The notes under the pieces: generated by a model
Databases searched by the model: none
Told to the model about the DNA's origin: nothing
What the model saw: only the letters and a program-made list of their open reading frames with translations
Position numbers and translations under genes: made by a program
Part shown: in pieces, positions 38,475 through 56,086 of the stretch
How positions within the stretch are numbered: position 1 is the first letter of the stretch
How the letters are laid out: each line of letters opens with the position of its first letter
From: Volvox africanus
Taxonomy: Eukaryota > Chlorophyta > Chlorophyceae > Chlamydomonadales > Volvocaceae
DNA: 64,000 bases
Assembly (NCBI GenBank): GCA_030268105.1
Contig: BSDZ01000013.1
Coordinates: 2,337,001 to 2,401,000, forward strand
Direction of reading: 5' to 3'

Positions 38475-47352
<8,878 letters not shown>

Positions 47353-49276: not shown

Positions 49277-52200
49277 TTACTCTGACGGGGTTACGAAGCC
49301 CTTGCTGACTGCACGGATAGGCGTCGTTAAAGTTTGCCTCCCAATGTTCCTCAAGTTGGACAGCAGTGACGACAGCGCGCTTTTGTTCACATCCACCACC
49401 ATCATGACCTGCAAGGCGGGGGGCGCAAGGTGTTGTGAAAGAAACACGCAATTTCCAGCCAGGAAAAAGTGTAGCCGTCGCACTTCGGACGCGAGATTAA
49501 GTATCCGTCCACCAGCATATACATACCAAAAACTGAACAAGACAGGTGACTGGCGTAATAGAGGGCACGGAACGGGGCCGTGCATCAGGCGCATAAATAC
49601 CCAACACATGCAACGGGTTGTGTGGTCAGCAGTGCCAGCCCCAAGGTTGCGTTCGACCCAGTCGGTGACCACGCACAGCCCTCATATACCCTAACCCCAA
49701 ATCGCATAACGGCGGCTTCCTGACCTGGCCAGTGGTGGGTACCGACTGATTGCGGGGGATGCCCAGAATGATCATGGCGGGGTTTTGCAGACCTCCGCCT
49801 GATACGACCACTACGGCTGCGCCCTCGGGGTCCAACCCGAGGTCTGTGGAAGATAGGGGGGGGGGGTTGCAGTTGGGAGGGGTGCAACTGGACGGAGTGC
49901 ATTGGGGCGTGCGGGTGCATTTGATACGATGCCATGCATACGCCAGGAGGTCAGATACAACAGGTTCCGCATGATGCGAAGAGTCAAGCAAAGCAATAAC
50001 CGAAAAGAGCAGTCAAGAGTAAGCAAGGATATTGTTATGGCTCTAATGGCTCTGGTCCAGCAGTACATATGGGGCGCCAAGAGTACCTTGCCCTCCCATG
50101 TAATCCTTGGATTGAATCCGAGGATTGGATTACAGGAAACCACTTACTTGGGTTCCTCCAGCTTTCCAGGCCCCATTGCACCGACAGGCGGAACACCTCA
50201 TCGGTACCAATCGCGTCGCGGATTGATTTCCAGGGGCCCTCGCCCCAGTACTTAGGCTGACCCGGGTGTGGCGCCACCACCGACAACTCCACCTTCATGT
50301 CCCGGGACGAACCCGACGAGAAGAGGCTGCCCCAGGAGGACTTCAGGAAGCTGTTGATAACGTTGTCGGGGTGGGATGGGGGGGCGGTGAGGTGCAGGGT
50401 ACCACCAGTACCAGGAATCTGCGGGGAAGAGACAGGCGACACATCGCAGCACAGCGTTATAAAGCAGTGGCCGCATCGATCGACACATTGTCACACACAC
50501 TCAATGTACTGACACCGCATGCTCACACGTGGCACCCACACACTCACACAAATACACACACAAGCACGCATTGTTTCGCTCTCTCCATCACTACATGTTC
50601 CAAACTTCGTTTCTTTCCGAGTTCTGAGTTCTAACAGGCGAACCCCTGATCCCCTGGTGCTTAGGCCTCATCAGGGTGTTTATCGAAGACGCACCAAAAC
50701 CCACCTCCACAGAGTAGTTGGGGGTGGCCCCGTGCATGGCCTTGCTATCCTTCAAGTTGCGGCGGGGTTCCAGGAGATCCAAACCCCGGGCCTCGCTGCT
50801 GGGGCTGTTGTAGATTCGGACGGACCATCTGCAGGGTGGAGGGCATAGGTCCCCAGGTATGGACCGGAGGAGGAGAGGAAGTTCAATGCGGAGTATGAAG
50901 GCGGTGCTGTTGGTCTTTAAATGGTTGCTGCCGGCGGTCCGGACCCGCACAGACGGACATACGCAGATGGACATGCGCCACTAGGCCTGTGTGGTTCGCA
51001 ATACATCCGTTGCCTGTGAAGCGACCTTATCTTGAGGCAGGGACGATCTTGAAACGTCATTCGTATCGTACCCTTTCTTCCATGATCACAGCGAAGTGTA
51101 ACTGTCTTCCAAGGCAGCGGCATCCATATAAGCGACGCAGCTCGCCAGCAGCTCTGGAACATCACTCTATTTCATCACACACTCACACACACACCGCCCT
51201 CTGCCTTACACCGCCGCCCCAGCTAACTGGATCTTTTTTGATGGCCCGAACCCTGTCATCCTCGTTTCGCCATCCGTCTCAATCCTCCGATAGGGCTCAG
51301 GTGCCTACTTCACCGCCGTACTTACCTCCAGCTGCTCTGCGACTCCAGCAAGCTGTACGCCCAGGCCACCGAGGCTTGCACAAGATGGCGGGCCTGCACA
51401 CCCTGAGTGGCCTGCTTCCAGCCGTTGTAATCGATAAGAGGCACCAGCGCCAGCACACGATCTTCCGGCAGGAAGGAGCGAGCGCTCTGAATCTGTGGTT
51501 GAACCGAACGGCAATGGGCGGGAGGGGAAGAGGGGATGACACCAAACACTGCGGATGTGCGTATCAGAGAAGGGATAGCGATAGCGTAAAAAAATGAATA
51601 AAAACGTGAAGCTAGCGGAGCATTGGGCAGGGAGGGCTACATGTGCACAGCTGGACGCCGCACATCTTCATGTACGGACGTCGCTTGCCGTACGTGTGAG
51701 AACACTAGCCAGCGCTACAGGCAGGGTAGAAGACCCCAGGAGAAAGAAAAGGAAAATGACTTATATGTATATGCTTTTCCATCTCATTCTTTGCGGGCAA
51801 TCGTAACATAACCTGACAACAACTGCTACCCATAGCATTTAATGTGAATCAATCAAGCGCTGCGTGTCGCCCAAACCCACATCCATCCACTTGAAGACAG
51901 CCAATCATGACTCCATTTTCCGGGATGGATATGGTCCCCTACCGGCCTCATGCATCGACAGACGACATAGAGTGCCGCATGTGACCTGCATAGAGTCGTC
52001 ACCGGCATCCAGCTATCCCGCGCGTTCTTTTGTTAGTAGTATTCTGTTCATCCATTTGCCGTACACAAACCTGGTGGTTGTTGAGCACCACAAAGGCCTT
52101 TGCCGCGCCGCCGCTCGCCTTCTTGATGTCGTTGACGAGGCCGTTGCGGTCCATGGTGATCCACATCAGGTCCTTGGAGATCACGGCCAGGTAAGCGATG

Positions 52201-55200
52201 CCATCGGAGGGGTGCTCGCGAAGGACCCTTCGGGAGGATGGGGAGCAAACCACGAAACGTTCGGTCCCTTAAGAAGAGAGTGAAAGGGAGCGGTGTCGCA
52301 AAGAGACTCTAAATAACTCATTAACTCACTAACCTGGGGGGATCGGGTGACATCGTGGGTTCAGTGCTGCATTGCCACAACTAAGAACAGGGTATCCCGT
52401 CAGTCCTCACCGCTTTTTAAGCCCTGGAACTTAGGGTTAACTTACTTTAATTTGTTCTTTACGAACCACTGGTTTCATTTCCACATCGGGGGGCTAGGTC
52501 TGCTCGGCAGGCATACTGTTGACTCACCTAACCTCCCACTGAACCCGTCGTGGGCAACAGAGCCCCATCCTGCTTCAACTACATCTCTACCTGCCCATCC
52601 AAACCTTCCCTGTCCCCAGCCCTCATCCTCGAGTATGTCGTTTCCATGACGCACCTCAGCAGATTCGTGTATTTGCCCTCATAGTAGCCATTGAGCGCCG
52701 GGTCTGCGAACTTGAGGTACAAGGCATCCAGCGCCGGGTGGCCGTTCCAAGCGTTGAACTCGGGCCAGTCCATCACGCTTAGCGGCTGATAGGAGTTGAC
52801 TTCGCCTGGCCGGGACGGGATTCAACAACGGGGGATTGTTAGGAGGGTTGGTCAAGATGGGGCCGCGTACAAGAGCTTCAGGGCTTGTTCATGTATGACT
52901 GCAAAAGCTTGTGAAGATCGACAAGGGGAGTAGCGGGTAGGACCGACGGAGGAGAGAGGAGAGAGGAGTGAGGAGAGAGGAGAGAGGAGAGAGGAGAGAG
53001 GAGAGAGGAGAGAGGAGAGAGGAGAGAGGAGAGAGGAGAGAGGAGAGAGGAGAGAGGAAGGGAAAGAATGCGGATTCGTTTGTCACGCATACAGTCGTCA
53101 TCCAAGTGGATGGGCGATGCCTGCACCTTGCTGGTTACCCCGCCCGGCAGCAGCCGGCAACTAGCTGTACCCGCTCCCCTTGGAAAGGGTCCTACCTTCG
53201 CCCTTGATTGGCCACACTGACAGCCCTTTCGCCGCCACCGCCTCCTGAATCGTCCACACGCGCCGCATGTACGAGTGGTTCACCAGCAGGGCCTTGATAG
53301 CGGAGCGGCTCAGGAATGACGGACCCCCTGCAACAACACCAAGCGCGTCCCAGAGGCGCCACGGTGGTTCGATCGAAGTGAGAGATGAAGGCTTTGAGAT
53401 GATGAGACAGCATTATAGTCGCGGAATAAGGTGGTAATCGGCGGGGTTTTAGGGTTTAGGGTTTATATATTATAGGGTTTTTATTCCCTTAAGAGGAAGG
53501 AACGGCGCACGACGACAGCGAACAAACCCATGGGGTGCGATAACGTGGATTGCAGAACTTACTGCTGAAATTCATCTCGCTGTTGTACTGCTGTACGATG
53601 GCCTCAGCATCCTGCGGGAAAGAATCGAATATGAATGGTGAGATCCATGTTGTGGCTGCACGAAACGCTGTATGCGTGTCAGGCGTTGAGGAGGGTGGAT
53701 TTGATAGGTTGGCAGACGACAATCAATACGTAGCCCGATAAACGCAATCCAATGTCAGGAGTAAATAGTGTCCACCGACACCATAAGTGCGTTTACGTCT
53801 AAGGGCGGCAACGACCTAATTCCCGAAACACACACCGATGGTGGGTCGAAACACGGTAACCAACGGTGAATATAATGTACTCATCCTTTCAACGCACACT
53901 TCCGCCTCATCATTCGGAATCACGGGCTACAGACATCCTGGCAGGTCGGTTCGGTAATTAATGCGGTAATGCATTATACAGAAATGTCAGTGAGCGTTGC
54001 AAACCGCTGCGGGACATCATGGCCAGCTTCACATGATGCCACGCTAGGTCCCCGTCTGTGGGCCCTGATGCCAACATGCTTGCTATCAAGTGCCGCACCC
54101 TCTTGCTCATGATGGTGCCCGTCGCATCATCCACCACGGGGGCAAGCATCAAGTAAACCTGCGGTCCCGGGGCGGAATCCATGTGGGCGATAGGGGACCT
54201 TGATTTAAGGGCGAACTTTGGGGAGGTAGAAAAACCCGTGCATTTTGAAGCTTTTGGATAGGATATCTCAAGAGGAGATCGAAGGGGGGGGAGGGTAAGA
54301 CTTATCCTTTTCATTCACTCTTTTACACTATTTAGCTGGACAGCCGTCATGCGGTAGCGCACGTGACGTGAATTGACAGTACAACACGCGCTCAAGGCCC
54401 GACAACAACATGATCGTAAACCGCCAGACCTCCTCAGCCCCCCTCCTACGCTCAACAATCCTAAGTTCACAACCCTAAGTTCAAGGCAGAATGACCATGA
54501 GTGGCACCCAGCCAGCTCAAAAAGTCCGTGCAAAAGCAGTTCGTGCAGGCGGAGCTTACGTTGCCAGCTGTGTAGATGGCGGGGCTGTCCTTGATGTGAC
54601 CCATCTTCGTTTCTTCGTCCGCGTCCTGAAGCGACAGCATGAATCATAGACATGGGTGACGCGGCAGTCAGGTTTTTACAGTAGCCGATGTTATCGGGTG
54701 GTATGTACACAGCTGTGTAACACTTACGCGCGCGTACTCTCATCAACATCACATCACTACAGGCGCGTGGTGCTTCGAGCCGCTTCGGAAGCTTGCAGCC
54801 CCGTTCTCTACGTGTCCGCCCTCGAATCGTGTAAGGTTTTGGACCCCTTCGAATGGACCAGATCTAGGCGTGAAGGCCTAAGATGCGCTGTGGGCTGTGG
54901 TGGGGTGTGGTGGGGTGTGGTGGGGTGTGGTGGGGTGTGGTGGGGTGTGGTGGGGTGTGGTGGGGTGTGGTGGGGTGTGGTGGGGTGTGGTGGGGTGTGG
55001 TGGGGTGTGGTGGGGTGTGGTGGGGTGGGGTGTGGTGGGGTGTGGTGGGGTGGGGTGGGGTGTGGTGGGGTGGGGTGGGGTGGGGTGGGGTGTGGTGGGG
55101 TGGGGTGTCGTAACCCTTGCAATCAAATCCTCACGATCAGTCCGGCTGTGCACCAAATCGACACACCTGCGGGACACACATTTGGTCCACCCAGGCGTAG

Positions 55201-56086
55201 TCCGCCTTCTTGTTGGTGTAGAGCCACAACAGCCACGCAGCCACCTGGGGATGGGCAACGGGGCATGATGCAGCAACATCGGCAATAGCACTATCGCGAG
55301 CTGTAGTTGTAGCTGTAGCTGTAGCTGTAGTGAAAGCGACAGATACACGACCAGTCAGGTCAGTGGCAGCACGCAATATTTTCGTACAGGTGACGGGTGC
55401 ACGTTGGCAGCGAGAGTTAATCTTTTCGAGGCCAGATGAGGGCGACATTATTATCCTTTTGCTTCGGAACCAATGAGCACCGACCTCGATCTGCAGGGAG
55501 TTGCCATCCGCCAGCGACCAGTCCACAGGCCGTGCACCGTCGTTTAGGTTTTGGATACCGTAGCCCACAGAGCCGCAGTCGGACAACCACCTTTTGAAGT
55601 CCTGAATGTTCTCATTACTAGCTCGGCTGCGCCACCGGTAGGACAGCACAGCGGCGCCCTGCGTACATGATGAGCAAGGATTTGGTATGTGTATGGGAGG
55701 GATATGGATCTGTTGAGTCAGGCAGTGTCAGTGTAGCTGGCCTCCGGAACGAATGTGCGCACGACTGAGAACGACCGAAAACACAAAATAGAGCATAGTT
55801 GCTTCGAACGTTAGCAGTACAATTGCTATTAAGTTATTGTTGTGGACGGTGACTGTGCTAGCGGACGAGGCCGAAACCGGGCAGGAGCTCAAGGGCGCAA
55901 CAGCGAAAGAACGGAAGTCGCTTGCGATAGCTTCCATTCGCGAAACCGTACCTGTAATGGTTGATCAGTTATCTTGCAGTTTTCAAGCTGCCATTTGTCC
56001 AGCTGGTATTGCGTTGAGGCACTTCCACTTCGTTTCAGGTTTGACAGCAACGCCGGAATGTTGTCAATAGGTAGATACCGTGGCAT
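49277..56086 (-). CDS. HET-domain-like protein with unrecognised C-terminal region, 14 exons
   Basis: Exons: 56086-55952, 55658-55485, 55244-55167, 54625-54560, 54158-54033, 53611-53563, 53327-53196, 52805-52655, 52227-52071, 51492-51326, 50828-50705, 50418-50148, 49843-49743, 49408-49277. All junctions agree in phase and give 620 residues from ATG to TAA. The N-terminal part matches the block order of the fungal HET domain: VLSYRWR at about 49-55, YAWVDQMCVPQDADEETKMG at about 119-138, SPAIYTAGN at about 143-151, and RRVWTIQEA at about 231-239. In fungi, HET proteins trigger cell death after non-self contact, and the fold is distantly related to TIR domains. Residues about 254-620 have no motif I know; they contain FPEDRVLALVPL-like and VAPHPGQPKYW stretches and a Gly-rich VVVVSGGGL strand. 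No signal peptide or membrane helix is evident, so a cytosolic location is likely. The family call is from motifs only. Confidence 0.75.
52949..53059. repeat. (GAGAGGA)n heptanucleotide repeat
   Basis: Around fifteen GAGAGGA units, almost perfect, in the intron between HET-like exons 7 and 8. The array is purine-only on the plus strand, so the pre-mRNA of this minus-strand gene has a long pyrimidine tract just inside the intron. Confidence 0.92.
53446..53482. repeat. Interstitial telomere-like tract
   Basis: The sequence reads TTTTAGGG, TTTAGGG, TTTA and, after a short AT break, TAGGGTTTTT. TTTAGGG and TTTTAGGG are the telomere units of Volvox-type and Chlamydomonas-type algae. It lies in the intron between HET-like exons 6 and 7. 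Two to three units is short and could arise by chance. Confidence 0.4.
54897..55108. repeat. (TGTGGTGGGG)n decanucleotide satellite
   Basis: About 210 bases of a ten-base unit with later five-base GGGGT variants, inside the HET-like intron between exons 3 and 4. On the plus strand the G-runs of four repeat every few bases, so G-quadruplex formation is possible; the transcribed strand carries the C-rich complement (CCCCACCACA). Confidence 0.93.
55300..55332. repeat. (GTAGCT)n microsatellite
   Basis: Five or so GTAGCT/GTAGTT units in the intron between HET-like exons 2 and 3. Confidence 0.8.

Follow-up and report, generated by a model that had tools for sequence, protein, structure and literature searches.

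Does a green alga encode a genuine HET-domain protein, and if so, what might such a protein do? The locus that raises this question lies in a stretch of 64,000 nucleotides of the Volvox africanus genome (contig BSDZ01000013.1, positions 2,337,001 to 2,401,000), here called the window. On its minus strand, a gene runs from 56086 to 49277, from ATG to stop, in 14 exons that join in phase. Its 13 introns are all of the GT-AG type, and 604 codons without an internal stop precede a TAA. The G+C content is 0.767 at third codon positions against 0.533 in the introns, and the two alternative frames of the spliced coding sequence hold 35 stops between them. The gene is nuclear, ordinary and intact, and its membership of the HET family is nearly certain.

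The initial annotation had described a complete, phase-consistent 14-exon gene with a product of 620 residues. Both gene ends were placed exactly, and the joining of the exons holds, backed by the introns and by the agreeing phases of a paralogue described below; the protein length does not, and becomes 604. The correction lies in exon 5 (54099-54158, residues 152-171), because two full-length homologues, P0001 and P0002, show this exon ending earlier, at 54099. The join with the uncorrected donor, of 626 residues, was rejected on that basis. The corrected donor is GTGCGG, before 54099, and the resulting exon length of 60 nucleotides is also found in the paralogue.

With this correction, the score of the Pfam profile PF06985 (HET) rises from 38.1 to 42.8 bits, above the curated cut-off of 22.5. 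The match (E = 8.6e-11) covers residues 50-216 of the 604-residue protein and positions 4-146 of the 146 in the model. Exon 1 (55952-56086, residues 1-45) encodes a leader, MPRYL..., also present in several family members. It is followed, in order, by what we take to be the three conserved HET blocks: AVLSYRW in exon 2 (55485-55658, residues 46-103), YAWVDQMCVPQD across exons 3 and 4, and YMRRVWTIQEA in exon 7 (53196-53327, residues 188-231). Exon 3 (55167-55244, residues 104-129) carries YAWVDQMCVPQ of the second block; exon 4 (54560-54625, residues 130-151) carries SPAIY and the start of the next helix, with Glu134 as a candidate for the TIR-position glutamate. Exon 6 (53563-53611) supplies residues 172-187. 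Altogether the order reads AVLSYRW / AWVDQMCVPQD-EE / IY / RRVWTIQEA and, with the profile match, bears out the HET domain first read from the sequence. As seen by eye in the raw sequence, introns 3 (window about 54895-55110) and 7 (about 52955-53060) contain tandem repeats of TGTGGTGGGG-type and/or GAGAGGA-type units.

A Pfam scan of 16 aligned family members at E ≤ 10, with most matches above about 0.1 dropped, matched 13 families overall, and HET was found in 14 of the 16 members. In the window protein, no family besides HET passes its cut-off; one LysM_RLK fragment stays below threshold.

Relatives of the protein were sought among 5.8 billion clustered proteins. Scoring the 7,996 candidates that share most words gave 15 relatives at E ≤ 0.01, and an alignment search over 7,997 word-sharing candidates gave 18 at E ≤ 0.001, three of them new fragments. 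The named homologues come from Volvox africanus, V. reticuliferus, V. carteri, Astrephomene, Pleodorina, Edaphochlamys, Gonium and Chlamydomonas schloesseri, which we take to be volvocine algae and close unicellular relatives; the proposal of a green-algal version of HET is thereby upheld. A query with the first 245 residues of the C. schloesseri protein returned, among 1,946 candidates, 14 matches at E ≤ 10, all of them existing family members. Homologues P0001 to P0005 cover 99-100% of the window protein with 60-82% identity, the C-terminal ~370 residues included. Two are likely orthologues with the same short end: Vafri_20018 of V. africanus (P0001, 605 residues, 85% identical) and Vretimale_10204 of V. 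reticuliferus (P0002, 604 residues, 82% identical). Both are hypothetical HET-domain proteins in the database, known here from the proteins alone, and at that level neither differs substantially from the window protein.

Several of the algal homologues are already annotated as 'Heterokaryon incompatibility domain protein'. In addition, according to the passages cited from PMC4986451, HET homologues of green algae, found by PSI-BLAST, and of bryophytes had already been noted in 2014. The presence of HET in green algae is thus already published, and both the domain and the algal family were known; what is new here is the splice correction, the paralogue, and the split into long and short forms with its likely lipid anchor.

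An exon-by-exon search of the whole genome (140,993,249 bases in 126 contigs) yields at least two members of the volvocine family, the window gene and a copy on contig C38; since only the best candidates are scored, all member counts are lower bounds. The C38 paralogue is a long form of 793 residues in 14 exons. Ten of these (2-9, 11 and 13) equal those of the window gene in length, and the entry phases agree for all 14. The last exon measures 717 nucleotides in the paralogue, where it encodes a CaaX-like tail, and 132 in the window gene. As the boundaries of the paralogue were placed at splice sites guided by the homologue P0003, it supports the splice model without being a blind proof of it.

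Between the two genes, the Nei-Gojobori ratio of nonsynonymous to synonymous divergence (dN/dS), an average over the different histories of the pair, is 0.27 overall; by region it is 0.18 (leader), 0.27 (HET), 0.26 (middle) and 0.29 (C-terminal). The corresponding dS values are 0.76 for HET, 0.70 for the middle and 1.12 for the C-terminal region, while that of the 45-residue leader, 2.18, is near saturation. With the ratio at 0.18 to 0.29 in every region, we conclude that the genes are under constraint. The two copies lie on different contigs. This is unlike V. carteri 105853 and 105850 (P0006 and P0007) and Gonium 15g489, 488 and 485 (P0009, P0010 and P0012), where gene numbers close to one another, on contigs of the same length, suggest small clusters.

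The long and short forms differ at their very end. Among 17 proteins compared (the window protein, the C38 paralogue and 15 search hits, with fragments P0016-P0018 left out), ten share a conserved tail motif, G-x-E-V/T-A-A-G/A. A cysteine occupies position -4 in eight of these ten and in none of the seven tail-less proteins; the eight ends are CTMM, CVIC, CILN, CVVC, CTIS, CVIC, CVIS and CTMM. Such a cysteine is the pattern of a CaaX prenylation signal, and the end of the long forms is likely a membrane-lipid anchor through predicted prenylation. The other two tail-bearing proteins end differently: V. carteri 105850, possibly through an error of its gene model at that end, and the metagenome protein P0014. 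The long proteins, such as Vafri_15769, Agub_g12162, PLESTB_001330200, HYH02_013526 and the C38 copy, share the HET, middle and beta-rich regions of the window protein but add a long tail with a KG...GxEVAAG motif before the CaaX-like end.

In contrast, exon 14 of the window gene (49277-49408, residues 562-604 and the TAA) ends in GFVTPSE, with neither the tail motif nor a CaaX-like C-terminus, and four tail queries found no remnant after the stop at E ≤ 1. Because the long members end in a CaaX-like sequence and the window protein does not, we propose that the family probably comprises membrane-anchored and soluble forms, the window protein being the soluble short form. The short forms of the window, V. 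africanus and V. reticuliferus group together in a clade (100/100) whose stem measures 0.38 changes per column; deeper branches of the tree lack resolution. Tail-less members also occur outside this clade, in Gonium, Pleodorina and V. carteri, so the tail may have been lost or gained repeatedly, unless some of the gene models are incomplete.

The AlphaFold2 model of the orthologue P0002 (604 residues, 18 sequences; mean predicted local distance difference test score, pLDDT, of 84.4 and predicted template modelling score, pTM, of 0.84) has three parts: alternating strands and helices at 48-226, helices at 245-384 and a beta-rich part at 391-596. On the window gene, the mostly helical middle predicted by this model would start with exon 8 (52655-52805, residues 232-281) and continue in exons 9 (52071-52227, residues 282-334) and 10 (51326-51492, residues 335-389). 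The predicted beta-rich region starts with exon 11 (50705-50828, residues 390-431) and includes exons 12 (50148-50418, residues 432-521) and 13 (49725-49843, residues 522-561). In 16 aligned rows, PRRN of exon 11 and both HPG and GPW of exon 12 are invariant.

The helical middle has the highest identity, above the HET part, in six of nine pairwise comparisons. Of the three large regions, the C-terminal one shows the lowest conservation in eight of the nine; in the ninth, between the long form and the V. africanus long form, it is the most conserved, at 93%. The C-terminal ~370 residues match no Pfam family, and the C-terminal region has no confident structural match among the matches listed. 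The initial annotation was right to class this part as of no familiar type; it is nonetheless common to the whole volvocine family, and not a fusion of the protein's own.

What the HET domain does may be suggested by its likeness to TIR. According to the passages cited, profile methods link HET to TIR (PMC4986451), and plant TIR NADases need a glutamate in helix alphaC for the cleavage of nicotinamide adenine dinucleotide (NAD+), a residue that HET is reported to share (PMC9153377). Compared with TIR-domain NADases on these accounts, the window family has a similar alternating layout of strands and helices in the model and a glutamate in the helix after block 2: helix 133-149 of the P0002 model has Glu134 at its N-terminal end. 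Its column holds Glu in 14 of 17 proteins, Asp in one (C. schloesseri) and a gap in two; by eye, the fragments P0016 and P0017 have Glu and Asp there, respectively.

The structural matches listed do not include TIR. Two observations weigh against this likeness. Of the two folds named for comparison at the outset, HET scores over its profile cut-off, but TIR is absent from the 13 Pfam families matched by any of the 16 members. The same genome also holds a second HET family, of at least three loci with long single open reading frames and HET over the Pfam cut-off: L001 (C43:60932-61354), L002 (C17:2463887-2464312) and L003 (C15:3911286-3911717). Its profile matches the volvocine family over the HET part with a probability of 93.6%, but it has a different C-terminal part, with a sub-threshold ankyrin match in L001, and in the alignment it has a gap where Glu134 stands. 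Setting the position and conservation of Glu134 against this gap and the missing TIR profile, TIR-like chemistry is the leading, though unproven, idea for the volvocine family.

In the passages cited, reviews list the biochemistry of HET or its mode of killing as undetermined (PMC12881547, PMC10197012, PMC10890737); a later passage of the first credits the HET/TIR module with NAD+ hydrolase activity, a statement that seems to go back to work on TIR. The same source states that fungal HET members induce regulated cell death when active and that overexpression of the HET domain is enough to kill fungal cells (PMC12881547). By analogy, a stress or cell-death role is possible for the window protein.

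Like the fungal PF06985 proteins HET-E and BH of Podospora anserina, the window protein has its HET domain at the N-terminus. BH, as described in the passages cited, is 622 residues long, and its specificity is set by a beta-fold (lectin) domain at the C-terminus (PMC10890737). The middle of BH is a beta-rich HAD, whereas that of the window family is helical in the model; BH ends in a fruit-body-lectin fold, and the C-terminal part of the window family, although beta-rich, has no lectin fold among the structural matches listed. Unlike the fungal HET-NLR (NOD-like receptor) proteins of HET-NACHT-WD40 type, the window protein has no Pfam match to NACHT/NB-ARC or to WD40 or other C-terminal repeats.

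We tentatively propose the following mechanism. The HET domain (residues about 46-231) would be a TIR-like alpha/beta effector, probably activated by oligomerisation. Once active, it would possibly cleave NAD+ or a nucleotide, using Glu134, and signal stress or cell death. Keeping HET inactive and sensing a ligand or partner would be the task of the helical middle (232-389) together with the beta-rich C-terminal region (390-604). The long form would act at the membrane via prenylation of its C-terminal cysteine, and the short form in the cytosol or as a partner of the long form. To the whole of this, a TIR-like HET effector in two forms controlled by its own C-terminal region, we give somewhat less than an even chance. 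A bolder proposal is a volvocine two-form HET switch, with a prenylated membrane-bound form and a soluble partner, a C-terminal sensor without known match, and TIR-like NAD+ or nucleotide chemistry that triggers stress or death; we consider it quite unlikely.

The HET fold may instead serve a non-lethal, possibly housekeeping purpose that has nothing to do with cell death; the protein would then be an adaptor or an enzyme of nucleotide or lipid signalling. A small and conserved family, the paralogue dN/dS of 0.27 and an identity that most often peaks in the helical middle all fit such a role, as does the statement, in the passages cited, that incompatibility genes are a minority among the HET genes of fungi (PMC10890737, PMC12881547). 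Yet the HET proteins with a known phenotype that are named in this literature act in allorecognition cell death, and we hold the non-lethal role unlikely, while giving it real weight. Less probable again, the short form could have arisen when a duplicated copy lost its last-exon tail, and could serve as a decoy for the membrane-anchored long form or as its regulator. The matched exon lengths and phases beside a last exon of such different size would agree with this origin, and so would the single short-form clade on its stem. But with the HET blocks and Glu134 retained, the short form need not be inactive, no tail remnant follows its stop, and the direction of the tail change is not established because the tree backbone lacks resolution.

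The initial annotation had also raised a self/non-self role, for which we found no positive evidence. The layout of HET with a beta-rich C-terminal region does resemble P. anserina BH, and the C-terminal region is usually the least conserved. To our knowledge, however, Volvox colonies do not fuse; the genome yielded two family members (a lower bound), their dN/dS in this one genome is of the purifying type in each region, the orthologues are 82-85% identical across species, and between long forms the C-terminal region is the most conserved. Fungal HET genes, in contrast, form large and variable families in the passages cited from PMC10197012. A fungal-style allorecognition gene is therefore improbable. 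Had the gene come recently from a fungus by horizontal transfer, or were it a contaminant, its 13 introns, whose phases recur in the paralogue, would be hard to account for, and so would named homologues from algae only; with the HET part of P0011 as query, no fungal protein appeared at E ≤ 10 among 1,946 candidates, and we regard this origin as highly improbable. The same goes for a decayed pseudogene: the missing tail, and nothing else, would speak for decay, against 604 codons without a stop, intact splice sites and orthologues of 605 and 604 residues.

Elsewhere in the window, the minus strand carries two exons of an ArsA/GET3-like ATPase (PF02374, 16660-19334), a RING-finger open reading frame (PF13639, 32175-32588) and an exon of an AAA ATPase (PF00004, 40888-41154). 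Open reading frames that read repeated YYIIL in three frames point to an AT-rich simple repeat at about 46430-46720.

Volvox carteri is transformable. So, according to PMC2720962, is Gonium pectorale. A small conserved family in a transformable lineage is a simple setting for finding out whether HET works as a TIR-like enzyme, and its paired long, likely lipid-anchored, and short forms offer a direct comparison of localisation. With a conserved algal family whose longer members have a likely membrane-lipid anchor, HET signalling could become testable outside fungi. If true, the two-form HET switch would be a plant-lineage HET immune or death pathway, independent of fungal allorecognition.
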